Shown here piece after piece: positions 1 to 24,978 of a stretch of DNA of 64,000 nucleotides; the stretch's first letter is position 1; each line of letters opens with the position of its first letter. Under the pieces are notes generated by a model. It did not search any database. It was given only the letters and a program-made list of their open reading frames with translations, and was not told the DNA's origin. The translations under genes and the position numbers were made by a program. The stretch is from Lysobacteraceae bacterium (GTDB taxonomy: Bacteria > Pseudomonadota > Gammaproteobacteria > Nevskiales > Nevskiaceae): NCBI GenBank assembly GCA_013823855.1, contig PNMW01000058.1:1-64000 (forward strand), written 5' to 3'.

Positions 1-536
1 CCGCTCACCGTGATCGCATTGCTCGTCTGCACGCTGCCCAGCGCCGCATCCGTCACCGGTGCAAAGCTGAATGCGTCAGGTGTCGTGTCAGGCGCCGCAT
101 CGTCGTTGATGATCGTTACCACGCCCTGGCCGCGGGCAATAGTCACTCCGACAGGGCTGCTCAGATTGACGAGAAACGTTTCGTCAGCTTCGAACTCCGT
201 GTCTCCATTGATCGTGTAGGGCTGTGCCTTGCTGGTCTCTCCGGGCGCGAACGTGGTCGTGCCTGATCGTGCGACATAGTCGCTACCGGCCGTCGCGGTG
301 CCGTTTGCGGTGGCAAAACGCACGGTTACCGTTTGCGTCGAGGGCGCGGACAGCCTGAAGGTCATCCTAGCCGTCGACGTGCCGCCGTTCCCTTCCTGGA
401 TGCTGACGTCTTCCAAACTGACCGTAGGCAGCGTCTGCGCCACCGCCCGAACCGGCATCAGCGGAGCCGCCAGCAACAGCGTACTGAGCACGCTCCGGGC
501 GAGATTGCGACGCAGAAAGGAATAGCGGGGCTTCAT
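1..536 (-). CDS. Secreted Calx-beta plus Ig-like repeat protein, N-terminal part only (truncated at window edge); third member of the giant repeat-esterase family
   Basis: Own translation from ATG at 536: MKPRYSFLRRNLARSVLSTLLLAAPLMPVRAVAQTLPTVSLEDVSIQEGNGGTSTARMTFRLSAPSTQTVTVRFATANGTATAGSDYVARSGTTTFAPGETSKAQPYTINGDTEFEADETFLVNLSSPVGVTIARGQGVVTIINDDAAPDTTPDAFSFAPVTDAALGSVQTSNAITVSG... Signal peptide, Calx-beta, then the first ~90-aa repeat. Missing from the ORF track because there is no stop in the window. Confidence 0.85.
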   Translation of the reverse strand, partial: MKPRYSFLRRNLARSVLSTLLLAAPLMPVRAVAQTLPTVSLEDVSIQEGNGGTSTARMTFRLSAPSTQTVTVRFATANGTATAGSDYVARSGTTTFAPGETSKAQPYTINGDTEFEADETFLVNLSSPVGVTIARGQGVVTIINDDAAPDTTPDAFSFAPVTDAALGSVQTSNAITVS

Positions 537-886
537 CACGACGCTCGATTGAGAGGGAAGAGTCGACGGAACACGACATCAAGCAGCCGAATCCGCCGTC
601 ACGCCATCAATACTGAACCAACAATGTAAAAATAAAGTCAATATGGCCTGTTTTTTCCACAACCTTGTTTTCCCGATTGGGCAAAAGTCAGTGGGAAATG
701 TGATGTCGGTCCGAAATGCCCTGGAATGGTGCTAATTCTCGGTGTCGAAGCTCTCCCCGGCGTCCTCGGATCGGCCGAATCAAGCGTTGCCGCCACCCCC
801 GACCAAAGTCCGAATCCGGCTGTTGTCCTGCGGTATCGGCAGCGACCGGCAAAGCTTGAGCGACCCGGAAGGCCGGCTGCGAACCG

Positions 887-3804: not shown

Positions 3805-3876
3805 GTAGGGCGGGTCACGACCCGCCGCTTTTTTTGCCGTTGCGCTGAATTCGAGGCGGGTCGCGACCCGCCCTAC
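3805..3876. repeat. Inverted pair of REP-like elements with GTAG heads (REPIN/BIME-like)
   Basis: 3805-3826 GTAGGGCGGGTCACGACCCGCC; 3855-3876 ggcgggtcgcgacccgccctac, the reverse complement of GTAGGGCGGGTCGCGACCCGCC; one base differs in the loop. Confidence 0.8.
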
Positions 3877-7635: not shown

Positions 7636-9219
7636 TCAGACGCCCGCCGCCAGCCTCGCGCCGCGGCGACGCCGCAGCGCGGCGCCGATCATCAAGCCGA
7701 AGACGCCGAACAGATCGAATGAGCCACCGCCTCCCGAGCTTGAAGCGCCACCGGTGGTGGTGCCGCCCGTCGTCGTACCGCCGGTCGTGGTGCCACCTGT
7801 GGTCGTACCACCGGTGGTGGAGCCTCCAGTCGTGGTGCCTCCCGTGGTTGTGCCGCCGGTCGTGGACCCGCCCGTGGTGCCGCCGGAGGTACCGCTGCCG
7901 GTGGTCGAGCCGCCGGTCGTGCCGTCTTCCGCGAACACGCTGAAGCCTTCCACCGCCAGCACCGAGATTTCGCTGGGTCCGGACTTGAACACCGAGGCGA
8001 AGCTGCCGTTGGCGAACAGCACCGTCGGTGGTGCGCGGCCGATCGAGAACGGCGTCGTGAAGATGCCGGTGCCCTTGAAACGGGTGTCCGGCACGCCGGC
8101 GGGAGTCAGCTGCACGCCGGCCACCGAGGTGGTGCCGGACACGTAGGTGCGGTTCGACAGCTGCAACACACCGTTGACGCCGATCAACTGGGTCACGCCA
8201 CTGGGCAGAATGCGGCCGAACAGCAGCTGGGTGAGATTCGCCTGGCCCTCGCCCGGGGTCGCGATCGCGTCGATGTCGACCACCCCGAGGCCGTCGGTGC
8301 CGAACGTCGTGTCCGCCGCACCGGCCATGTCATCGCTGAACACGGTGCCGACGAACCGCGACGACGACACCTTGCCGCTGCCGAAGTTGAGCACCCGGCC
8401 GGTCGTGCTCGATGTCGCCACTCCAAAGCCGAGCGCCGACGTGATCCCGGACGGAACCGGCGGTGTCTCGATCCGAAGGCCCGTGCTGTTGAACGTGCTG
8501 TCGAGTGCCCCTTCCGGCGTCACCGCGTAGGTCACCGCCTCCAGGTTGCCGAGCGCGTCATCGGGCGCCGTGCCAACGACGAACGCGCCGCTCAGCAACA
8601 GCCGGCCGGTGGTCGAATTGACGGTGGCCGCGAGGCTGAAACGATTGTCGACGATGCGACCGGAGTCGATCGCCAGATCGTTGCCGCCGTTGAAGGTCGC
8701 ATCGCGGACAGCGTCGAAGCGCCGCGCCGACACGGTGATCTCATCGGCCGTCAACGTCGCCGGCAACGTCACCAGGTAGAAGCGCTGGCGAACCTCGTCG
8801 AGGCCCAGCGCCAGGTTGTCGTCGAACGCGCTGCTGAGGCCGAAGTCCAACGGCCCGAAGCTGCTGTCGAGCGTGCCGGTGCTGCCGAGGCGGACCAGGT
8901 ACAGGTGGCTGTCGATGGCCAATGGCGGCACGGCCCGGTACAGCACATACAACTGACCTGCGCTGTCGGTGACCGCCGCCGCGACGATGCCGCCCGGTTC
9001 GTCGTCACGCAGCGTGAACCCTGCTCCGATCGAGAATACCGACGTGCCGGCGGTGCCATAGGTCGGGATCGGCGACAGGAAATCCGCCTGGCTGGCCACC
9101 GAGGCCAGCAAACCGACACCCGCGAACGCAAGGGCTGTCGCGATACGGCAGGACCGCGAGGTCATCGCGCGGAGTACGGGGGCGGCTTTTACAGCGGGCG
9201 TGGCTAAGCGCATGGTCAA
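7636..9219 (-). CDS. Secreted delta-60-repeat-like protein with Thr/Gly linker and C-terminal GlyGly-CTERM-like sorting signal
   Basis: N-terminal signal sequence (FAGVGLLASVASQA); repeated 'LDSSFG / DATFNGG / LDSTFNSTG / DTTFGTDG / DTRFKGTG' half-repeats; (GGTTT)n linker; C-term SSSGGGGSFDLFGVFGLMIGAALRRRRGARLAAGV. Confidence 0.75.
   Translation of the reverse strand: MTMRLATPAVKAAPVLRAMTSRSCRIATALAFAGVGLLASVASQADFLSPIPTYGTAGTSVFSIGAGFTLRDDEPGGIVAAAVTDSAGQLYVLYRAVPPLAIDSHLYLVRLGSTGTLDSSFGPLDFGLSSAFDDNLALGLDEVRQRFYLVTLPATLTADEITVSARRFDAVRDATFNGGNDLAIDSGRIVDNRFSLAATVNSTTGRLLLSGAFVVGTAPDDALGNLEAVTYAVTPEGALDSTFNSTGLRIETPPVPSGITSALGFGVATSSTTGRVLNFGSGKVSSSRFVGTVFSDDMAGAADTTFGTDGLGVVDIDAIATPGEGQANLTQLLFGRILPSGVTQLIGVNGVLQLSNRTYVSGTTSVAGVQLTPAGVPDTRFKGTGIFTTPFSIGRAPPTVLFANGSFASVFKSGPSEISVLAVEGFSVFAEDGTTGGSTTGSGTSGGTTGGSTTGGTTTGGTTTGGSTTGGTTTGGTTTGGTTTGGTTTGGASSSGGGGSFDLFGVFGLMIGAALRRRRGARLAAGV
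7749..7923 (-). repeat. In-frame tandem repeat encoding GGTTT/GGSTT linker
   Basis: Degenerate 15-bp periodic gg(t/c)ggcacgacgac units encoding GGSTTGGTTTGGTTTGG... Confidence 0.8.
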
Positions 9220-12982: not shown

Positions 12983-14806
12983 TCAGCTGCGGCGATCGAC
13001 GCCGAGCACGGCCAGGAAGGCTTCCTGCGGAATCTCCACCGAGCCAACCTGCTTCATGCGCTTCTTGCCTTCCTTCTGCTTTTCGAGAAGCTTCTTCTTG
13101 CGGCTGATGTCGCCGCCGTAGCACTTGGCGAGCACGTTCTTGCGGATCGCCTTGACCGTCGAGCGGGCGATGATCTTGGCGCCGATCGCCGCCTGGATCG
13201 CGACGTCGAACATCTGCCGATGGATCACGTCCTTCATCCGCTCGCAGAGGTCGCGGCCACGCGCTTCGGCGTCGTTGCGGTGGACGATGGTCGCCAGCGC
13301 GTCGACCTTGTCGCCGTTGACCAGCACGTCGAGCTTGACCAGCGGCGCGGTCTGGAAGCGCACGAACTCGTACTCGAAGCTGGCAAATCCGCGGCTGACC
13401 GACTTCAGGCGATCGAAGAAATCGAGCACCACTTCGGCCAGCGGCATCTCGACTTCCAGCTGCACCTGGTTGCCGTGGTAGCGCAGGTTCTTCTGCACGC
13501 CGCGCTTTTCCATGCACAGCTGCATCACCGAGCCGACATAGGTCTGCGGCATCAGCAGGCGGCACAGGATGATCGGCTCGCGCACGTCCTTGTAAGCGCC
13601 GGCGTCCGGCAGATCGGACGGATTGTCGATCTTCCTGGTCTCCCCGCTCGCGGTCTCGATCTCGTAGACCACACTCGGCGCGGTGGTGATCAGGTTCAGG
13701 TTGTATTCGCGCTCCAGGCGTTCCTGCACGATCTCCATGTGCAGCATGCCGAGGAAGCCGATGCGGAAGCCGAAGCCGAGTGCGCTGGAATTCTCGGGCT
13801 CGAACTGCAGGGCCGAATCGTTCAGGCGCAGCTTCTGCAGCGATTCGCGGAAGTCCTCGAAATCGTCGGCGTCGACCGGAAACATGCCGGCGAACACCCG
13901 CGGCTGGACCTGACGGAAACCGGGCAGCTGATCGACCGAGGCGCGGCTGGCTTCGGTCAGCGTGTCGCCGACCGGCGCGCCGAAGATATCCTTGATGCCG
14001 GCGACGATGAAGCCGACTTCGCCGGTCTCCAGCGAATCGCGCAGCACCCGCTTCGGCGAATGGACGCCGAGCATGGTCACTTCGTAGTCCTTGCCGGTCG
14101 AGATCACGCGGATCTTCTGGCCCTTCTGGATGCGACCGTTGACCACCCGGACCAGCGATACGACACCCAGGTACGGGTCGAACCAGGAATCGACGATCAG
14201 CGCCTGCAGCGGCGCGTCGACCGTACCCTTCGGCGCCGGCAGCCGCTCGACCAGCGCTTCGAGCACGTCGATCACGCCGAGACCGGTCTTGGCCGAGATG
14301 CGCAGCGCATCGGTGGCCTCGATGCCGATGATGTCCTCGATCTCCTGGCTGACGCGCTCCGGCTCGGCGTTCTGCAGGTCGATCTTGTTGAGGATCGGCA
14401 TCACTTCGAGCTTCTGCTCGAGGGCCGTGTAGCAGTTGGCGACCGACTGCGCCTCGACACCCTGCGAGGCGTCGACGACCAGCAGCGCGCCCTCGCAGGC
14501 GGCCAGGCTGCGGCTCACTTCGTACGAGAAATCGACGTGGCCCGGGGTGTCGATGAAGTTCAGCTGGTACAGCAGCCCGTCCCTGGCGCGGTAGTTCAGC
14601 GACACCGCCTGCGCCTTGATGGTGATGCCGCGCTCGCGCTCGATCGGATTGTTGTCGAGCACCTGCGCCTGCATCTCGCGTTCCTCGAGGCCGCCGCAGA
14701 TCTGGATGATGCGATCGGCCAAGGTCGACTTGCCGTGGTCGATGTGGGCAATGATCGAGAAGTTGCGGATCTGGGCTTGCGGGACGCGGGGAGCGGGCTG
14801 CGACAT
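12983..14806 (-). CDS. lepA: Elongation factor 4
   Basis: [63 protein letters not shown]; start reset to MSQPAP. Confidence 0.97.
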
Positions 14807-15017
14807 GGTCGGGGCGGTCAAAATTTGCGCGAGTATACCGGTGCGGCGGCCGTCGCCGCGCCGCCAGCCCATCCAGCCGCGCGAATGCGGCAGGTCGAAC
14901 GCGTTACCTGACCGGACGCTGTACAGCAGGACCTCGTCACGCCGGACAAGTGGTCACGGACACGTCTCTGCCCGTTGGCATTCCTCCCTGCTTCGCTGAC
15001 GACGATCGGGACCTGGG

Positions 15018-18000
15018 CTACGGCAACGCTGGCAGCAAACCGAGGCTGGTCAGGAAAACCCGGGTTTCCTCGCGGACAGCATCGATCGCCGTCGCGCTGC
15101 CCGACAGATCGTGACCGGCGCCCGCCTGATTGCGGTATTCGCAGCGGACACCCAGACGGATCAGCGACGAGCAGAAATGCACGCTCGGCGTCGGGGCTAC
15201 GGTGGTATCCCGATCACCCTGGAACAGCAGTACGGGTGGATGGCGGGCGTCGAGATTGACGCTGGGCGAAATCACCGGGCCGAGATTGGCGAAGATCTCG
15301 GCCACCTCGAAGCGCTGGATGTGCGATTCCGTGGTGATGTCCGGGACGCCGGCGCGCGTGACGATCGCTGCCGGGCGCACCAGGGGGTTGTCGTCCGCCA
15401 CCCCGGTCGCCGGCGCATCACGAAGCCCGGCGAAGAAGGCCACGCCGCCGCCGGCCGATGAACCGGACAGCGCGATCCGCGCCGGATCGATGCCGAGTTC
15501 ATCCGCGTGGGCCTGCACCCACCGCAGTGCTGCGCGCCCGTCGTCGGCCGCGATGTACGAGTAAGTGCCGAAGCGATTGTTCACCCGGTAGTCCGGCGCG
15601 ATGCCGACCATGCCGTGGTTGCTGGCCCAGTACCTGGCCTCGCCGATGGAGTTGTCGATGGTGCCGAACACGAACCCGCCGCCGAACCAGTGGATCAGCG
15701 CCGACCGGCGATCGGTCGAGCGCCAGCCGGTCGGCCTGCACACGAACAGGCGCAGCGCCACTGGCTCCAGCTGGCGATAGATGTGCGACGTGCAGTCGGT
15801 CGCGGTGGTGGGCGTCGCCGCGACGGGATCGATCGTCGAGGTCACCGACAACGTCGAATTGAGCGCACCGATACTCAGCGTGACCGACGTGCTGGTGTCG
15901 TGGCTCGCCGAGGCGGTGAACTGGACGACCACCGAGTCGCCGCTGACCACCGTGCCGGGAGCCGACGTGAACGCGCCGCCGTTGATGCTGTAGCTGCCGC
16001 CGGTGATGCTGATCGCGCTGGGTGACGGGGAGCCGGAAACGACGATCGGCAAGGTCGTCAGCGCTCGGCCCGGCGACACGGTGCCGCCCGGGAACATCTC
16101 GGCATTGACCAGCGTGAAGGCTTGCAACTGGCTCGGGTCGCTGCCGGTCCGCAGCCACCAGGTCGTGCTGCGGCTGCCGATATTCAGGGTCACCCGCGTT
16201 TCGACGTCGTAGCCGGCGCCGCTGGTGGCTTGCAAGGTCACGAGATCGCCGCCGCGCACCGTCGCGGCCGAACTGCGGAAGGCGCCACCATTGATGCTGT
16301 AGCTGCCGCCGGCCACCGAAATCGGCGTGGCCACGTTGATGCCGCGGATCTCGATGGCCTCGCTCTGGACGATGCTGTTGCGCGGCACCGTGACGTCGCG
16401 GAACTCGAAGAAGTCCGCGAAATCGTCCGCTGGCGCATCGGCAGTCACGGTATAGCTGCCGGTGATCCCGCCGAGATTCAGCGTCGCCGTGGCGACATCG
16501 CCTCGATTGGCCCCCGGGATCACCAGGACGCGAACCTGGTCGCCGTTGCGGGCCGCGCCCGGCATCGACAGGAACGGTCCACCGTTCAGGCTGTACTCGC
16601 CTCCGGTCACCGACACCGGAATCGGCGCGCTGATGCCGCTCACTGGCAACGGCGGACTCACGGCACCCAGCAACGGGAACGCGGCGGGGTTGCTCGCGGA
16701 ACTGAACCGGGCCGGCGTGACATCCGCTCCGGTGGTGGTGACGTAGAACACGGCACTGATCCCGCCGACGGTCAGCGTGGCCGCCGTCGTCGTCGCGGCG
16801 GTGCTCGCCGCCGTGGCCCGCACACGGACGATGGAACCATTGCGGACGTTCCCGGGGTTGCTGGTGAACGCCGCCCCGCCAATGCTGTACTGGCCGCCGA
16901 CGATGGCGATTTCCGCCGGCGCATCGATGCCGCCGATCGTCACCGCAGCGCTGCTGCGCACGCTGCCGGTTGCGGCGTCGACGATCGGCGCGAATGCGAA
17001 GGCCGCCGGCGTGGTATCCGCCGGCCGCGTGCTCAGCCTGAACGTCGCGCTCGTGCTGCCCACGGTCAGCACCGCTTCGCGGCTCGCCGAGTAGGCCTCG
17101 CTGGCCACGACCTCCACCGCCACGCTGTCGTTGTTCGACACCGTGCCGGGAGCCGATGTGAACGCGCCACCGTTGACGCTGTACCGGCCGCCGGCGACCG
17201 ACACCGGTGTTCCGGGGGAGATGCCCGCAATCATCACCGGATGGCTCGCCTTCACGCTGCCCGGCTCGGCATTGAACGCCGCGGCAAACGAGAACGGCAG
17301 GGGCTCCTGATCCATCGTGACGCGAGAGGTCGTCGTCACCACGAAATCCGAGTGCTTGTCGCCGATCGTGACGGTGGCGCTGCGGGTCTCCGATGGCAGT
17401 TCGGACGCCAGCACTTCGGCGATCACGACATCCCCGTTCACGACTTCGCCGGGCGAAGCCGTGAACGCACCGCCATTGATCTGGTAGCGCCCGCCGCTGA
17501 CTGCAATCGGCACCGCGATGTCGATCCCGGTCACGACGATCGGCTCGCTGCGCACGGCACTGCCCGCTTCGGCATCCAGCGCGGCGGGAAAGCTGAAAGG
17601 ATCGGGCGAGGCATCGGCGGTGATGCTGTGCGTGGTCACCCGATAGGCGCCGGACACCCCGCCGATGGTCAGGACCGCCTCGCGCGCTTCCGAGTAGCCA
17701 TAGGCGGACAGGACCTGCACCGCGACCGAGGCGCCGTTGACGACGCTGCCGGGCGCGTCGGTAAACGCCCGCCCGTCGACGCTGTAGAAGCCGCCGACGA
17801 TCGAAATCGGACTCGGCGCGTTGATGCCCGCCACGGTCGTCGGCCTGCTGGTCTGCAGGGACCCCAGCGGTGCGTCCGCTTTCGGCGCGAAACTGAACGG
17901 GTCCGGCGTGGTGTCGACGGCTTCCGTGGTCACCGCGTACGAACCGCTGACCGTCCCGATCTTCAAAACCGCAGTGGTGGTCGTCGAAAAGCTGCTCGAC

Positions 18001-18893
18001 GCGGTCTGCTGCACGGTCACCCGGGCGCCAGCGTCGACAGTACCGGCAAGGTTCGTGAACGCTTGGCCGTCGATGCTGTAACGGCCGCCGGTCACCGAAA
18101 TCGGAGCGCCGGTGTTGATGCCGCCGACCGTGATCGGGGCGCTGGTCTGTACGCTGCCGCGCGGTACATTGGCTGCTGACGGGAAACTGAAAGGATTGGG
18201 CGTCGTGTCAGCCGTCCTGACGGTGGTGATCCTGAAGCTGCTGCTGACCCCGCCGATCGTGACCGTGACGCCGGAACTGGTGTTGACACTGCTGCTGGCC
18301 GTTCCCCGCGCGCGCACCTGGGCATTGTTGCCGACGGTGCCGGCGGCCGACGTGAACGGCCCGCCATCGATGCTGTAGCTGCCGCCGCTGCTGACGCTGA
18401 TGGCGGCGGCGGCCTCGAGCCCCGTGATCGTTGACGGGTCGCTGGTCTGCACGCTTCCCAGAGCGGCTTCCGTGCGCGGTGCGAAGCCGAATGCATCCGG
18501 CACCGTGTCCGCCTTGCGGGTCGTCACCTTGAATGTCGACGTGGCCGACGGTGTGCCGATCCGGAGCTTGGCGCTGACCGGCGTGCTGAATGCGTCCGAA
18601 GACATCACCCGGACTCGGACGACATCGCCGCTGGCCACCTTGCCCGAGACTTTCGTGAACGCGCTGCCGTTGACGCTGTATGCCCCCCCGGACACGCTGA
18701 TCGGCACACCGGTATCGATGCCGCCAACGGTCTGGCCGGCGCTGATGACATTGCGCGATCGCTCCGCATTGGTCACGGAGGGAAACACGATCGGATCGGG
18801 GACAGTGTCGGCAGCCCAAGCCTTCGGCAACATGAACACCAACATGGCGCAACTCAGCACGCCGAGTCGCTTGAGTGACGACAGCCCCATCAT
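15018..18893 (-). CDS. Giant secreted protein A: ten ~90-aa Ig-like repeats plus C-terminal alpha/beta-hydrolase (putative esterase)
   Basis: Signal peptide ...CAMLVFMLPKAWA|ADT; ten units of D(T)xPDxFxF...GSVQTSxxITVxGI...ISVxGGxYSINGGAFTSxxGTV.NGDxV...TLTIGGVSxxFxVTT; C-term HWFGGGFVFG, GSSAGGG, GDRDTTVAP, GAGHDLS. ORF opens at 18980, but MM at 18893/18890 fits the signal peptide better. Confidence 0.85.
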   Translation of the reverse strand: MMGLSSLKRLGVLSCAMLVFMLPKAWAADTVPDPIVFPSVTNAERSRNVISAGQTVGGIDTGVPISVSGGAYSVNGSAFTKVSGKVASGDVVRVRVMSSDAFSTPVSAKLRIGTPSATSTFKVTTRKADTVPDAFGFAPRTEAALGSVQTSDPSTITGLEAAAAISVSSGGSYSIDGGPFTSAAGTVGNNAQVRARGTASSSVNTSSGVTVTIGGVSSSFRITTVRTADTTPNPFSFPSAANVPRGSVQTSAPITVGGINTGAPISVTGGRYSIDGQAFTNLAGTVDAGARVTVQQTASSSFSTTTTAVLKIGTVSGSYAVTTEAVDTTPDPFSFAPKADAPLGSLQTSRPTTVAGINAPSPISIVGGFYSVDGRAFTDAPGSVVNGASVAVQVLSAYGYSEAREAVLTIGGVSGAYRVTTHSITADASPDPFSFPAALDAEAGSAVRSEPIVVTGIDIAVPIAVSGGRYQINGGAFTASPGEVVNGDVVIAEVLASELPSETRSATVTIGDKHSDFVVTTTSRVTMDQEPLPFSFAAAFNAEPGSVKASHPVMIAGISPGTPVSVAGGRYSVNGGAFTSAPGTVSNNDSVAVEVVASEAYSASREAVLTVGSTSATFRLSTRPADTTPAAFAFAPIVDAATGSVRSSAAVTIGGIDAPAEIAIVGGQYSIGGAAFTSNPGNVRNGSIVRVRATAASTAATTTAATLTVGGISAVFYVTTTGADVTPARFSSASNPAAFPLLGAVSPPLPVSGISAPIPVSVTGGEYSLNGGPFLSMPGAARNGDQVRVLVIPGANRGDVATATLNLGGITGSYTVTADAPADDFADFFEFRDVTVPRNSIVQSEAIEIRGINVATPISVAGGSYSINGGAFRSSAATVRGGDLVTLQATSGAGYDVETRVTLNIGSRSTTWWLRTGSDPSQLQAFTLVNAEMFPGGTVSPGRALTTLPIVVSGSPSPSAISITGGSYSINGGAFTSAPGTVVSGDSVVVQFTASASHDTSTSVTLSIGALNSTLSVTSTIDPVAATPTTATDCTSHIYRQLEPVALRLFVCRPTGWRSTDRRSALIHWFGGGFVFGTIDNSIGEARYWASNHGMVGIAPDYRVNNRFGTYSYIAADDGRAALRWVQAHADELGIDPARIALSGSSAGGGVAFFAGLRDAPATGVADDNPLVRPAAIVTRAGVPDITTESHIQRFEVAEIFANLGPVISPSVNLDARHPPVLLFQGDRDTTVAPTPSVHFCSSLIRLGVRCEYRNQAGAGHDLSGSATAIDAVREETRVFLTSLGLLPALP

Positions 18894-19432
18894 GCTTGCC
18901 CCTGATGCGCCACCTTCCGAGGCGGCAGCGCAATACCGGTGTACCGCGGGAGAAGCCGCGAAAACGTCGCGGATTCCCAATGAAGTTAATGTGTTGCCCT
19001 ATCCGCCTGACGGCTCGGCCGCGTCATCACGCACCCGCAGCGCCTGACCTTGGCCCTTCATCGTATCGATGACGAGGTACCTGACGTCTTGCGCGATGGA
19101 GATTGCACGAGCGTGCGTCTGACTGAATCCGAACAGCGGTCGCGTCGATTTTTCCGGCGCTTGAGGCGAAGAACTCGTGCCCGCCGAGTGATCGGCTCAG
19201 CTCCTCGCTGCCGACCTGACGGGGCGGAGGATGCCCGTCGTTCCGCACTCCGTGCAAGATGAAACTGTCCGGAACCGGTTTTCGCGAGGGTCGTCGTTCG
19301 CCGCTGCGCGGGCTGAAAGCACCGTAGCGCCTCGACCGCTGACGCGGGCGGTCGCGCGATTCAAAAGAATCACCGAAGTCGCCCGAAGGTTGATGGACCG
19401 TACGCGCCGCACGTCTCAACCATTCGCCGGTG

Positions 19433-19480
19433 TGTCGCCCAGCTGACCAGGCACCGTTGTGCCTGGTCAGCTGGGCGACA
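19433..19480. other. Perfect 22-bp-arm inverted repeat (4-nt loop) immediately after the stop of giant protein B
   Basis: TGTCGCCCAGCTGACCAGGCAC cgtt GTGCCTGGTCAGCTGGGCGACA; stop codon (tca on plus) at 19481-19483; no T-tract follows on the minus strand. Confidence 0.9.
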
Positions 19481-22400
19481 TCAAGGAAGCGCCGGCAGCA
19501 GCCCCAGACTGGTCAGGAACACGCGCGTTTCTTCACGGATCGGATCCAGGCCATTGGCGCCGACAGACAGGTCATGCCCGGCGCCCGCCTGGTTCCGGTA
19601 CTCGCAGCGGATTCCGAGACGAATCAATGACGAGCAGAAATGCACGCTCGGCGTCGGCGCCACCGTGGTGTCGCGATCACCGTGGAACAGCAGCACCGGC
19701 GGGAAACCGGTGTCCAGATGGACGCTTGGCGAGATCACGGAGCCGAGATCCGCGAAGCGATCGGCGCTCTTGTAGGCCTGGATGTGGGACTCGGTGGTGA
19801 TGTCCGGCACGCCGGCACGCGTCACGATCGCTGCCGGGCGCAGCAAGGGGTTGTCGGCCGGCGAGCCGGTCACCGGCGCCTCGCGCATTGCGGCAAAGAA
19901 CGCCACGCCGCCGCCGGCGGATGAGCCCGACAGGGCGATCCGTGCCGGATCAAGGCCCAGTTCCTCGGCGTGCTCCTGGAGCCAACGGACTGCGGCACGG
20001 CCATCGTCGGCGGAAAGGTAGGCGTAGGTGCCGAAGCGGTCGTTGACACGGTAGTCCGGCGCGATGCCGACCATGCCGTGGTTCCTGGCCCAGTACCGAG
20101 CCTCGCCGACCGAACTGTCGACATTGCCGAAGATGAAGCCGCCACCGAACCAGTGCACCAGCGCGGATCGGCGATCGGTCGACCGCCAGCCTGCCGGCTT
20201 GCAGACGAAGATCCGCAACGGCACCGGCGCCTGCTGCCGGAAGATGTGCGAACTGCAGTCGGTGGCCGAGGTCGGCGTGGCGGCGACGGGATCGACGGTG
20301 GTGGTCACCGACAAGGTCGAGCTGAACGCGCCGATCCTGAGCGTCGCCGACTTGGGCGTGTCATAGCTGGTCGACGCGGTGAACTGGACCACCACCGAAT
20401 CGCCGCTGACCACGGTGCCGGCGGCCGGGGTGAATGATCCGCCGTTGACGCTGTAGCTGCCGCCGCTGACGCTGATCGCCGTCGGCGACGACGGGTTGTA
20501 GACAGTGATCGGCACCGTGGTCTGCACGCTTCCCGGCACGACTGCCCCGCCGGCGAACATCGATGCATTGACCAGGGTGAACGCCTGGAGCTTCGTGGGA
20601 TCGCTCTCGGTCCGCAGCGACCAGACGGTACTCCTGCTGCCGATGTCGAGGGTGACCCGCACCTGCGCGTCATGGCTGCTGCCGCTATTCGCCTGCAGCG
20701 TCACCTGATCGCCGCCGCGCACGGTCGACGCCGCGCTTCCGAACGGACCGCCATTGATGCTGTAGCTGCCTCCGACCACCGAGATCGGGGTCGCCACGTT
20801 GATTCCGCGGATCACGCTGGTTTCGCTGCGGACGATGGCGTTGCGCGGGCCGATGGTCTCGCGGAACTCGAAGATGTCCGGGAAATCGTCGACCGGCGCA
20901 TCCGCAGTGACCGTGAAGCTGCCGACGACCCCGCCGAGGTTCAGCGTCGCGGTGCGCGTATCACCACGATTGGCGCCGGGGGTCACCAGCAGGCGAATCC
21001 GGTCGCCATTGCTGACCGGCCCCGGAACCGACATGAAGGCTGCGCCATTGACGCTGTATTCCCCACCGACCACCGACGCCGTGATCGGCGCATCGATGCC
21101 GCTGACCGTGATCGGCGCGCTGACTGCGGCCAGCAACGGAAACGCGCTCGGGTTGCCATTGAAGCTGAACGGGTCCGGGGTGATGTCGGCACTCGACGTG
21201 GTGATGTCGAAGACCGCGCTGATCCCGGCGATGGTCAGCGTGGCGGCCGTCGTCGTCGCAGGCTTCGCAGATGCCGACGTGCGCACGCGGATCGCATCGC
21301 CATTGCGAACCTCGCCAGGGTCGCTGGTGAACGGCGCATTTCCGATGCTGTACGTCCCGCCGGTGATCGAGACCGCGACCGGGACATCGATGCCGCTGAT
21401 GGTCACCGCCGCGCTGATGCCGATGCTGCCCGGCACGGCGTCGACGATCGGTGCGAAGGCGAAGGCATCCGGGGTTGCATCCGCCGGCCGGGTCGTGACC
21501 TGGAACGCGGCGCTGGCCGTGCCGACCGTCAGCACGGCCTCGCTGCCGGCGGCGAAATCCGCGCTGGCGATCACTTCGGCGGCCACGCTGTCTCCGCTGG
21601 CGACGACGCCGCTGATGGCAGTGAATTCCCCGCCATTGATGCTGTAGCGCCCGCCGACCACCGCAATCGGCGTACCGGCGCTGATGCCGGTCATCATCAC
21701 CGGCTGGCTGGTCTGCAGGCTCCCGGGCTCGACGTTGACGACCGGCGCGAACGCGAACGCATCGGGATCGATGTCGATCGGATTGCGCGCGGTCGTCGCG
21801 GAGAAATCGGCACTGACGCCGCCGATGACGAGGGTCGCGGTGCGGGTCGTGGCGTCCGTTTCGGCCGCCTGCACTTCGGCAGTGACGCGGTCACCGTTGG
21901 AAACCTCGCCGGGTTCCGCAGTGAACGCGCCATCGTTGACCTGATAGCGGCCGCCGTTGACGGTGATCGGGACCGCGACATCAATGCCGCCGACGACGAT
22001 CGGCTGGCTGCGCTGGAGGCTGCCGACCGGAGCATCGACGACCGGTTGGAAATGGAACGCGTCGGGTGTGCCGTCGGCCGTGAAGGTCCGGGTGGTGACG
22101 CTGTAGGTGCCGGCGACCCCGCCGATGTCGAGCGTCGCCGTCCGGGTTTCCGAATAGCCGTACGCGGCGAGCACCTGCACGACCACCGTCGCGCCGTTGC
22201 CGACGCTGCCGGAAGCATCGGTAAAGGCCCCGCCGTCGATGCTGTAGTAGCCGCCGGCGATCGATATCGGACTTGGCGCAGTCAGGCCGGTCACGGTGAT
22301 CGGATGACTGCTCTGCGGGCTGCCGAGCGGTGCATCGAGGGTCGGGTCGAAGCCGAACGGATCCGGCTTCGTGTCGGGCGCCGGATCGTCGTTGACGATC

Positions 22401-23698
22401 GTCGCCACCCCCTGCGCCTTCTCGATCGTCAGGCCGACCGGAGCACTCAGATTGACGACGAAGGTTTCGTCCGGCTCGAAATCGAGATCGCCATTGACCG
22501 TGAACGGCTGGGTCTTGCTGGTCTCGCCGGGCGCGAACGTCGTCGTGCCGGTTCTGGTCAGGTAGTCGTTGCCGGCGCTCGCCGTGGCGCTCGCGGTGGC
22601 GAAGCGGACCGTCACCGTCTGGCTGGTCGGCGCCGACAGTCGGAAGGTGAAACGCGCCACCACCGTTCCACTGTTTCCCTCGACCACGCTCACGTCATTG
22701 ATGCTGACGCCGGGAACCGCGACCGCTGCGGTGGTGACCGCAAAGCCGCTGCCGACGCCGCCGATGGTCAAGGTCGCCGTGGTCGTCGTGTTCGCCGCGT
22801 TCGAGGCGGTCTGCTGCACGCGGACCGTCTGCCCCGCCGTCACCGTCCCGGCCGTGGTCACGAAGGCGCCACCGTCGATGCTGTAGCTGCCGCCGGTCAC
22901 CGAAATCGGCGCCCCGGTGTTGATGCCACTGACGACGATCGCTGTGCTGGTCTGCACGCTGCCGGGAGCGGCATTGCTCGTCGGGGCAAAACTGAACGCA
23001 TCCGGCGTGGTATCGGCGGTCTTCACCGTCGTGATCTTGAAGGTTCCGTTGATGCCGCCGATCCTGACCGTGACACTGACCGACTTGTTGGCCGTGGCGC
23101 TCGCGGTGCCGCGGGCACGCACCTGGGCATGGTTGGCGACGGTGCCGGCAACCGTCGTGAACGGTCCGCCATCGATGCTGTAGCTGCCGCCGCTGCCGAC
23201 ACTGATCGCTGCCGCCGCTTCGAGGCCGCTGATCGTCGTCGGTTCGCTGGTCTGGACGCTGCCGAGCGCAGCCTCGATGCGCGGCGCGAACGAGAACGCG
23301 TCCGGCACGGTGTCGGCCTTCCGGGTCGTGACCTTGAACGTCGACGACGCCGATGGCGAGCCGACCTTAAGCTTGGCGCTGGCGGACGTGTAGAAGGCAC
23401 CCGACGACACGACGCTGACCCGGACGGCATCGCCATTGACGACGCGTCCGGAAGCCGTGGTGAACGCGCCTCCGTTGATGCTGTACGCCCCGCCGCTGAC
23501 GCTGATCGGCACGCTGGCATCGATGCCGGCGATGGTCTGGCTGTCGCTGATCACCGTACGACCGGGCTCGGCGTTGGTCACGGCCGGGAAGACGATCGGC
23601 TCGGCGACGGTATCGGCCGCCCATAGCGGCGCCGTACGAAGCACCAGGATGGAGCAGACAAGTACCCGCAGCCATACCCTCGAATTCGCGCGCAACAT
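19481..23698 (-). CDS. Giant secreted protein B: ten Ig-like repeats, one Calx-beta domain after repeat 3, C-terminal alpha/beta-hydrolase
   Basis: Signal peptide MLRANSRVWLRVLVCSILVLRTAPLWA|ADT; repeats and hydrolase align unit-for-unit with protein A; Calx-beta VSINDVSVVEGNSGTVVARFTFRLSAPTSQTVTVRFATASATASAGNDYLTRTGTTTFAPGE... Confidence 0.87.
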   Translation of the reverse strand: MLRANSRVWLRVLVCSILVLRTAPLWAADTVAEPIVFPAVTNAEPGRTVISDSQTIAGIDASVPISVSGGAYSINGGAFTTASGRVVNGDAVRVSVVSSGAFYTSASAKLKVGSPSASSTFKVTTRKADTVPDAFSFAPRIEAALGSVQTSEPTTISGLEAAAAISVGSGGSYSIDGGPFTTVAGTVANHAQVRARGTASATANKSVSVTVRIGGINGTFKITTVKTADTTPDAFSFAPTSNAAPGSVQTSTAIVVSGINTGAPISVTGGSYSIDGGAFVTTAGTVTAGQTVRVQQTASNAANTTTTATLTIGGVGSGFAVTTAAVAVPGVSINDVSVVEGNSGTVVARFTFRLSAPTSQTVTVRFATASATASAGNDYLTRTGTTTFAPGETSKTQPFTVNGDLDFEPDETFVVNLSAPVGLTIEKAQGVATIVNDDPAPDTKPDPFGFDPTLDAPLGSPQSSHPITVTGLTAPSPISIAGGYYSIDGGAFTDASGSVGNGATVVVQVLAAYGYSETRTATLDIGGVAGTYSVTTRTFTADGTPDAFHFQPVVDAPVGSLQRSQPIVVGGIDVAVPITVNGGRYQVNDGAFTAEPGEVSNGDRVTAEVQAAETDATTRTATLVIGGVSADFSATTARNPIDIDPDAFAFAPVVNVEPGSLQTSQPVMMTGISAGTPIAVVGGRYSINGGEFTAISGVVASGDSVAAEVIASADFAAGSEAVLTVGTASAAFQVTTRPADATPDAFAFAPIVDAVPGSIGISAAVTISGIDVPVAVSITGGTYSIGNAPFTSDPGEVRNGDAIRVRTSASAKPATTTAATLTIAGISAVFDITTSSADITPDPFSFNGNPSAFPLLAAVSAPITVSGIDAPITASVVGGEYSVNGAAFMSVPGPVSNGDRIRLLVTPGANRGDTRTATLNLGGVVGSFTVTADAPVDDFPDIFEFRETIGPRNAIVRSETSVIRGINVATPISVVGGSYSINGGPFGSAASTVRGGDQVTLQANSGSSHDAQVRVTLDIGSRSTVWSLRTESDPTKLQAFTLVNASMFAGGAVVPGSVQTTVPITVYNPSSPTAISVSGGSYSVNGGSFTPAAGTVVSGDSVVVQFTASTSYDTPKSATLRIGAFSSTLSVTTTVDPVAATPTSATDCSSHIFRQQAPVPLRIFVCKPAGWRSTDRRSALVHWFGGGFIFGNVDSSVGEARYWARNHGMVGIAPDYRVNDRFGTYAYLSADDGRAAVRWLQEHAEELGLDPARIALSGSSAGGGVAFFAAMREAPVTGSPADNPLLRPAAIVTRAGVPDITTESHIQAYKSADRFADLGSVISPSVHLDTGFPPVLLFHGDRDTTVAPTPSVHFCSSLIRLGIRCEYRNQAGAGHDLSVGANGLDPIREETRVFLTSLGLLPALP

Positions 23699-24048: not shown

Positions 24049-24978
24049 TCAGTGCAACACGTAATCCGCCGGAATCGGCTTCACCGGCGGCAGCGGCTCG
24101 CCGAGCATTTCCAGCAGCGAGGCCTCGATGTTGTCGCAGATCGCACCGAGCGCCAGATCGTTGTCGTCGAAGCCGAACGGGGCTTCGAGTTCTTCGGCGA
24201 TCGCTTCCAGCGCCATGAAGGTGTAGGCAACGAACACCGCGAAGACCGGCGCATACCAGCCGATGGTGCCGACCAGCGCGAACGGCAGCAGCGAGCAGTA
24301 GAAGTAGATGGTGCGATGGACCATCACCGAGAAGGTCAGCGGGATCGGCGTGCCGGCGATGCGCTCGCAGCCGCCGACGGCATCGCCGAGCGTGCCGAAG
24401 TTCTGTTCCATCGACGCCGAGAGGATGTCCGGCAGCGTGCCGTCGCGGCGGGCCGCGTGCAGCTGGTCGCCGAGCAGCTGCTGGATCACCACCGGCTTCC
24501 AGCGCGCGGCGAGCACCCGCGGCAGGTCATCGGCCGCCAGCAGACGACGCAGGTCATCGCTCGCGTCGGTATGGCGCAGCTGGTGCCGGAACGCGTGGGC
24601 ATGGGCGATCAGGGTGCGGACGAAGCGCTGCGCCGCTTCCGATTTCGGCGCCCACTCGGTCAGGGTCAGCGCCTGCCGGGCCAGCGCCCGCGAGGCGTTC
24701 ATGATCGAGCCCCAGAGCTTGCGCGCATCCCAGTAGCGTTCGTGGCTGACGTTGATCCGGAAGCCGAGAAAGATCGCCAGCGCCAGTCCGAGCAGCGTGA
24801 ACGGCTGCAGGCTCAGCTCGATCTTCTGCAGCAGGTCGGCATCGACCGACACATGCAGCACCTGCGCGAAAACGCCCAGGCCGCCGATGATCGCCAGCCG
24901 CGGCACCAGCTTGCTGAGAATCGAGCCCCGCCAGATCCACAGCATCTTGAACCAGTGCGGACGCGGCCGGACGATCAT
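24049..24978 (-). CDS. Bestrophin-family (UPF0187/RFP-TM) putative anion channel
   Basis: SHERYWDARKLWGSIMNASRALARQ signature; multi-TM; EELEAPFGFDDNDLALGAICDNIEASLLEMLGE. Confidence 0.88.
   Translation of the reverse strand: MIVRPRPHWFKMLWIWRGSILSKLVPRLAIIGGLGVFAQVLHVSVDADLLQKIELSLQPFTLLGLALAIFLGFRINVSHERYWDARKLWGSIMNASRALARQALTLTEWAPKSEAAQRFVRTLIAHAHAFRHQLRHTDASDDLRRLLAADDLPRVLAARWKPVVIQQLLGDQLHAARRDGTLPDILSASMEQNFGTLGDAVGGCERIAGTPIPLTFSVMVHRTIYFYCSLLPFALVGTIGWYAPVFAVFVAYTFMALEAIAEELEAPFGFDDNDLALGAICDNIEASLLEMLGEPLPPVKPIPADYVLH

Follow-up and report, generated by a model that had tools for sequence, protein, structure and literature searches.

Exported hydrolases on ten-repeat Ig-like stalks in a freshwater Nevskia-type bacterium and their possible action on acetylated alginate-like polymers

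Two esterases of the alpha/beta-hydrolase fold are the described systems closest to the proteins considered here. Thermogutta terrifontis esterase 2 (TtEst2; PDB 5AO9, 7BFN) is a secreted, nearly capless carboxylesterase with a single domain of ∼287 amino acids (aa), which works best on p-nitrophenyl (pNP) acetate, employs the triad Ser126/Asp216/His248 and carries a GGG-aromatic oxyanion motif (PMC4655241). BD-FAE (PF20434; PDB 6TKX, 6XYC) is a feruloyl and acetyl-xylan esterase; among its more distant homologues, 29 have been found in alginate-targeting polysaccharide utilization loci (PULs) (PMC8165983). The removal of O-acetyl groups from alginate has been described for a bifunctional deacetylase/epimerase of Pseudomonas syringae, whose substrate is shielded by acetylation from most lyases (PMC4444821). 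Here we describe two adjacent minus-strand genes, A and B, in a stretch of 64,000 nucleotides (nt) that forms positions 1 to 64000 of contig C7 (the window) in the 3.87-Mb, 88%-complete assembly (G000) of a freshwater Nevskia-type bacterium. Each encodes a large exported protein, in which a signal peptide is followed by a long stalk of immunoglobulin (Ig)-like repeats and a C-terminal hydrolase head (Table 1). A and B apparently join known parts in an undescribed combination, as an earlier note made from the DNA letters had already supposed: no description of the architecture has been found in the openly accessible literature on Nevskia esterases, Ig-repeat esterases and alginate esterases or deacetylases, subscription papers lying mostly outside this scope.

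The heads of A and B are BD-FAE-type alpha/beta-hydrolases with a conserved Ser-Asp-His triad, and their nearest solved relative is TtEst2. Both pass the gathering cut-off of PF20434 (65.4 bits for B and 61.8 for A against 26.8), and Abhydrolase_3 matches the same C-terminal ∼270 aa more weakly. TtEst2 has been the best solved-structure match in a profile search (E 1e-51), and it has also ranked first in a Foldseek search (template-modelling score, TM, 0.78/0.83; ∼30% identity) with an AlphaFold2 model of the head, which has been built on a 30-sequence alignment (predicted local distance difference test, pLDDT, 87.5; predicted TM 0.87). Every catalytic motif that the earlier note had picked out has been recovered, and none of the 30 head homologues deviates in the Ser, Asp or His column, with the reservation that the GxSxG register may be off by one residue in the C17-type paralogues. 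A valid triad, on which that note had let its reading depend, is what we infer from the alignment with TtEst2 and the overall fold match, not from active-site geometry. Its assignment of the head to the hormone-sensitive-lipase (HSL) or fold-3 enzymes has stood as far as the alpha/beta-hydrolase fold and the triad are concerned. A classic HSL or family IV lipase has been rejected, as the His of the HGGG motif is replaced by Phe in A and B (FGGG) and by Ser or Thr in paralogues (SGGG, TGGG), and curated NCBIfam models of HSL type have scored far under their cut-offs (LipP1 58 against 350 bits, GESAG HSL 30 against 430 bits). Indeed, A and B share with TtEst2 the GGG-aromatic motif without this His, the signal peptide and the lack of a large cap; no helical N-terminal cap is present in the head model, where the repeat strands run nearly straight into the core strands. 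TtEst2 differs in that it has no stalk and no lyase family sharing a stalk with it. With BD-FAE the heads have in common the Pfam family, the secreted-enzyme context and the relatives in alginate PULs, whereas the identity in Foldseek is only ∼20%, and BD-FAE has been characterised on xylan and carries no Ig-like stalk.

The conservation of the head is consistent with an active enzyme that works outside the cell. All 30 heads share two invariant Cys residues. A further pair is present throughout the subfamily at the lepA locus (10 of 10) and in none of the 20 other heads; these conserved pairs suggest disulphides, and thereby a place outside the cytoplasm. The ratio of nonsynonymous to synonymous substitution rates has been found at ∼0.04-0.18 for the head versus 0.20-0.45 for the repeat array, with purifying selection stronger on the head in every pair compared. 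We regard A and B as almost certainly exported serine hydrolases, and as likely carbohydrate O-acetyl (or similar acyl) esterases.

The stalk that carries this head is an acidic, Cys-free rod of ten Ig-like domains, into which B has inserted a Calx-beta domain (PF03160 E 2.1e-12, 47.5 bits versus a cut-off of 27). The count of ten repeats given in the earlier note is exact for both proteins, while the anchor spacing of 98-103 aa places the period nearer to 100 aa than to the ∼90 aa proposed; its outline of signal peptide, repeats and hydrolase is likewise right, with the Calx-beta domain overlooked. Position by position, the repeats of A and B share 56-77% identity (mean 67%), as against a mean of 40% for different repeats, and therefore the ten-repeat array predates the gene duplication. 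The repeat stands far above chance, since, of 61 related genomes, 27 contain matches to its profile, the best at E 1e-77. A model of two repeats (58 alignment rows) consists entirely of beta strands with a pLDDT of 98.1, and Foldseek matches to ciliary Ig-like domains (E 1e-7) and to titin Z1Z2 (E 2e-5, TM 0.56) identify the fold as an Ig-like beta-sandwich, as had been supposed for its Ig-like nature. In Pfam no family has been found at E 0.01 for the modelled pair, with scattered weak matches among the 58 members, and a search of PDB sequences with the repeat profile has given no match. Apart from the esterases, the repeat carries subtilase and endonuclease/exonuclease-type heads in G000 and is fused to a multicopper oxidase in a related genome (G032). 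Five copies stand C-terminal to a GH5 cellulase on plasmid pTfr153 of Thiothrix fructosivorans (L134). The repeat is shared in this way across Gammaproteobacteria, and the order of head and stalk is reversed in Thiothrix. In PHROGs the repeat resembles short-tail-fibre families; a phage or plasmid origin has been rejected, because the matches are weak and confined to the repeat or the head.

Regarding the substrate, the most informative relatives are those in which the same stalk ends in another enzyme. In the Nevskia family one kind of stalk carries either a BD-FAE-type esterase or an alginate lyase of polysaccharide lyase family 7 (PL7, PF08787). The stalked PL7 lyases (G013:C200 with ten repeats, G015:C66, G015:C73 and G000:C3) share with A and B the repeat, the C-terminal position of the catalytic head and the export, and differ in having a PL7 lyase in place of the alpha/beta-hydrolase. 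Within the genus, the seven genomes with PL7 are exactly the seven with stalked esterases, and the other 11 lack both; such a coincidence would be expected once in 31,824 among independent genomes, which these are not. In a LepA tree of 17 of the 18 genus genomes (the PL7-rich G013 gave no LepA match and has been left out), G008 and G016 are nested in the carrier group and lack both traits, so that PL7 and the stalked esterase must have changed together at least twice. In four genomes a PL7 gene adjoins a stalked esterase (G000:C5, G005:C17, G014:C11, G010:C27). Moreover, one cluster of G000 (L181, G000:C3:101001-120999) holds genes for AlgF, an AlgX/J-like protein, two AlgI-type MBOAT proteins, AlgL, AlgG and Alg44/Alg8-like proteins, and by its gene content this alginate biosynthesis and O-acetylation operon gives the bacterium the predicted means to make acetylated alginate. 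As acetylated alginate resists most lyases, a secreted deacetylase would help them, and since relatives mount an alginate lyase on the same chain, the esterases A and B may well strip acetyl groups from alginate-like slime. We give an alginate-like polymer about an even chance of being the substrate. The lyases beside stand-alone relatives of the head and the alginate PULs that hold distant BD-FAE homologues also point to acetylated alginate or a similar uronate polymer. The best explanation overall is that A and B are secreted, stalked polysaccharide O-acetyl-esterases, which would unmask an acetylated alginate-like polymer for lyases, and we consider it a balanced proposition. The action on a polysaccharide ester that had been suggested from the letters is, in this broader form, supported as probable by the polysaccharide lyases around the relatives and by PL7 on the same stalk.

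Several observations weigh against the alginate proposal. The pair A and B itself has no lyase neighbour, as lyases adjoin only the paralogues, and the co-occurrence with PL7 rests on about two independent transitions. A PL6-type lyase is absent from the genus, and so is a PL17-type lyase save for one heparinase-II/III match in G015; the genus therefore does not hold the standard set for alginate catabolism, and PL6 and PL17 have been uninformative as markers. The synthesis markers AlgL and AlgE-type occur in several genomes and do not track the stalked esterases. Furthermore, the activities of the head's relatives cover acetyl, feruloyl and small pNP esters, which makes xylan, pectin, another exopolysaccharide or small esters possible substrates as well.

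Two alternatives take up these substrates. In the first, which we consider unlikely, A and B would be secreted carbohydrate esterases for non-alginate polymers of plants or algae, such as acetyl-xylan, feruloylated xylan or pectin. The heads do match PF20434, whose namesake frees ferulate and acetate from xylan (PMC8165983), and the A/B-type repeat is fused to a cellulase in Thiothrix, but the absence of GH10 xylanases from all seven genomes with stalked esterases lowers the xylan alternative; the lyase on the same stalk belongs to PL7, and BD-FAE relatives beyond the xylan clade sit in alginate PULs or outside PULs (PMC8165983). The second, which appears similarly doubtful, assigns A and B a broad carboxylesterase role, secreted or in the surface layer, with small esters, lipids or polyesters of the air-water interface as substrates and the stalk as an adhesin. 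Such a role would suit the open active site of TtEst2, the nearest structure, which accepts small pNP esters (PMC4655241), the neuston pellicles inhabited by Nevskia (PMC7798470) and the similar repeats in phage tail-fibre families and cyanophage proteins. Yet the genomic context of the family consists of polysaccharide lyases, no lipase-type extra domains are present, and depolymerases of polyhydroxyalkanoate and polyhydroxybutyrate have been rejected, the models reaching 21.8 versus a cut-off of 150 bits and 12.4 versus 108 bits. That the repeats are the working part, as matrix scaffold or adhesin, with the hydrolase as a minor, degenerate or regulatory cap, is very improbable, for although the array makes up ∼78% of the protein and sits on many unrelated heads (subtilase, endonuclease/exonuclease-type, multicopper oxidase, PL7, GH5), the triad is invariant and selection has acted more strongly on the head.

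The lack of an anchor bears on how the enzymes would reach their polymer. Neither A nor B has a lipobox, and no GlyGly-CTERM or other tail follows the catalytic domain (end ...GLLPALP). G000 does encode a rhombosortase (G000:C35), and other repeat proteins of this genome bear a GlyGly-CTERM-type tail; for A and B, anchoring at the surface by either means has been rejected. Of the extracellular or surface enzyme foreseen in the earlier note, the secreted part has thus been retained, on the signal peptides and the Cys pairs, and the surface anchoring has not. With GspD present in G000 and no anchor, the simplest assumption is export by Sec and then by a type II system, which would take A and B across the outer membrane.

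For the preferred reading, in which A and B act as alginate-like polymer deacetylases, the following sequence of events may be proposed. The proteins would pass the inner membrane via Sec and the outer membrane via the type II system, and would then be released into, or held by, the extracellular matrix. Ser149 (head numbering, segment window:15021-15902) would attack a short acyl ester, likeliest O-acetyl, on a uronic-acid polysaccharide such as acetylated alginate, and the loss of the acetyl group would leave the polymer open to cutting by PL7 lyases. The stalk may provide reach and a weak multivalent or Ca2+-dependent hold in the slime. The target might be the matrix of neighbours or that of the cell itself, the latter because G000 encodes the acetylated-alginate operon. 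As a tentative extension, some Nevskia might practise a modular remodelling of the matrix, in which one stalk with swappable heads, alginate deacetylase or PL7, acts in sequence on an acetylated alginate-like slime that is possibly self-made.

If true, this would explain how bacterial alginate can be opened extracellularly when acetylation makes it resistant to most lyases, and it would add an alginate deacetylase unrelated to that of P. syringae (PMC4444821), which shares with our proposal the removal of O-acetyl from alginate and differs in the SGNH-type fold of its N-module and in its architecture. In the literature searched, an alpha/beta-hydrolase fold has not been described for alginate deacetylation. 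Among the BD-FAE esterases, the untested alginate branch gains a concrete candidate substrate. In addition, exported enzymes that form an expanding, lineage-specific group are now tied to an orphan Ig-like repeat without a Pfam family, and a single kind of stalk on which esterase and lyase heads replace each other offers a simple system to ask what long stalks do.

The origin of the family can be traced in part. Stalked esterases occur in seven of the 18 genomes of the genus, G000 included, with a single further case in another genus of the family. A genome has up to six of them; G000 has five (A, B, C17, C5 and C31). The closest heads outside the Nevskiaceae, at 35-42% identity, belong to stand-alone secreted esterases of Opitutaceae, other Verrucomicrobiota, Sumerlaeota and one planctomycete, which consist of a signal peptide and a single domain (∼300 aa in all) and, unlike A and B, have neither repeats nor Calx-beta. 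They often lie beside polysaccharide lyases, with chondroitinase-B-family and heparinase-II/III-like lyases, a sulfatase and GH2 among their neighbours, and one relative of this type is fused to a heparinase-II/III domain. In the head tree a 100/100 branch splits the stalked from the stand-alone heads, which would fit a single fusion and later duplication. The genes A and B occupy a site between a bestrophin-family gene and lepA in a conserved backbone (nadB / rpoE-rseA-rseB-degP-glutaredoxin-bestrophin-site-lepA-lepB-rnc-era-recO). The number of stalked esterases at this site is one in G002, two in G000 and G005, three in G014 and zero in G016, where the site is intact and empty and bestrophin directly precedes lepA.

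Table 1. Coordinates in the window of genes A and B, their parts and their conserved flanks.
Feature	Position	Strand	Description
gene A	15018..18893	-	1291 aa from the likely ATG; signal peptide + 10 repeats + hydrolase
signal peptide of A	18813..18893	-	aa 1-27, ...LPKAWA|ADT; Sec-like, by eye
stalk of A	15834..18815	-	ten Ig-like repeats R1-R10; no Cys; predicted isoelectric point ∼5.0
head of A	15021..15833	-	BD-FAE/TtEst2-type alpha/beta-hydrolase; PF20434 E 8e-17; Foldseek TtEst2 E 1.6e-22
nucleophile Ser of A (GSSAGG)	15456..15458	-	Ser149 of head; aligns with TtEst2 Ser126
catalytic Asp of A (GDRDTTV)	15207..15209	-	Asp232 of head; aligns with TtEst2 Asp216
catalytic His of A (GAGHDLS)	15111..15113	-	His264 of head; aligns with TtEst2 His248
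gene B	19481..23698	-	1405 aa, ATG; signal peptide + 3 repeats + Calx-beta + 7 repeats + hydrolase
signal peptide of B	23618..23698	-	aa 1-27, ...RTAPLWA|ADT; Sec-like, by eye
stalk of B	20297..23620	-	ten Ig-like repeats + one Calx-beta insertion; no Cys; predicted isoelectric point ∼4.4
Calx-beta domain of B	22421..22660	-	aa 347-426, between repeats 3 and 4; PF03160
head of B	19484..20296	-	BD-FAE/TtEst2-type alpha/beta-hydrolase; PF20434 E 6.8e-18
hairpin after B	19433..19480	-	perfect, 22-nt arms, 4-nt loop, directly 3' of B stop codon
lepA	12983..14872	-	conserved downstream flank; synteny in G000, G002, G005, G014, G016
bestrophin-family channel gene	24049..24978	-	conserved upstream flank; PF25539 E 1.4e-98; synteny

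The two adjacent same-strand reading frames and the Sec signal peptides ending in AWA or LWA before ADT had been recognised at the outset and have been found again in both genes, with the cleavage sites assigned by eye; an AWA/TWA-AD junction is also conserved in related species. The maximal reading frame of gene A extends over 15018..18980 (-), where a TTG start at 18980 would lengthen the protein. A scan of the A/B region for sigma-70 promoters and T-run terminators has given no promoter and nothing above chance. Overlooked so far had been the hairpin just past the stop codon of B, whose arms are 100% complementary (minimum free energy -49.7 kcal/mol, z -9.4) and whose sequence occurs once within the window; it has no T-run and is a possible terminator.

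Further repeat proteins have been observed in the assembly. At window 3..539 (-), the contig end cuts off another protein, of which the beginning, with signal peptide, Calx-beta and repeat, is left, and such contig breaks within repetitive genes suggest that the family is under-counted in the G000 assembly. In a lamin-tail/nuclease-like repeat protein (L013, G000:C31, ∼22834-23181), the Calx-beta part contains an in-frame TGA, which reflects either a pseudogene or an assembly error, and a similar interruption has been seen at G000:C27:6824-7192. Elsewhere in the window, the gene at 7636-9219 (-) encodes an exported protein without a Pfam match, which has a Gly/Thr-rich region and a GlyGly-CTERM-like tail that is Gly-rich, hydrophobic and Arg-rich. 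An intergenic inverted repeat resembling repetitive extragenic palindromes lies at window 3805-3876 and consists of GTAGGGCGGGTCACGACCCGCC and its near-complement, 28 nt apart.

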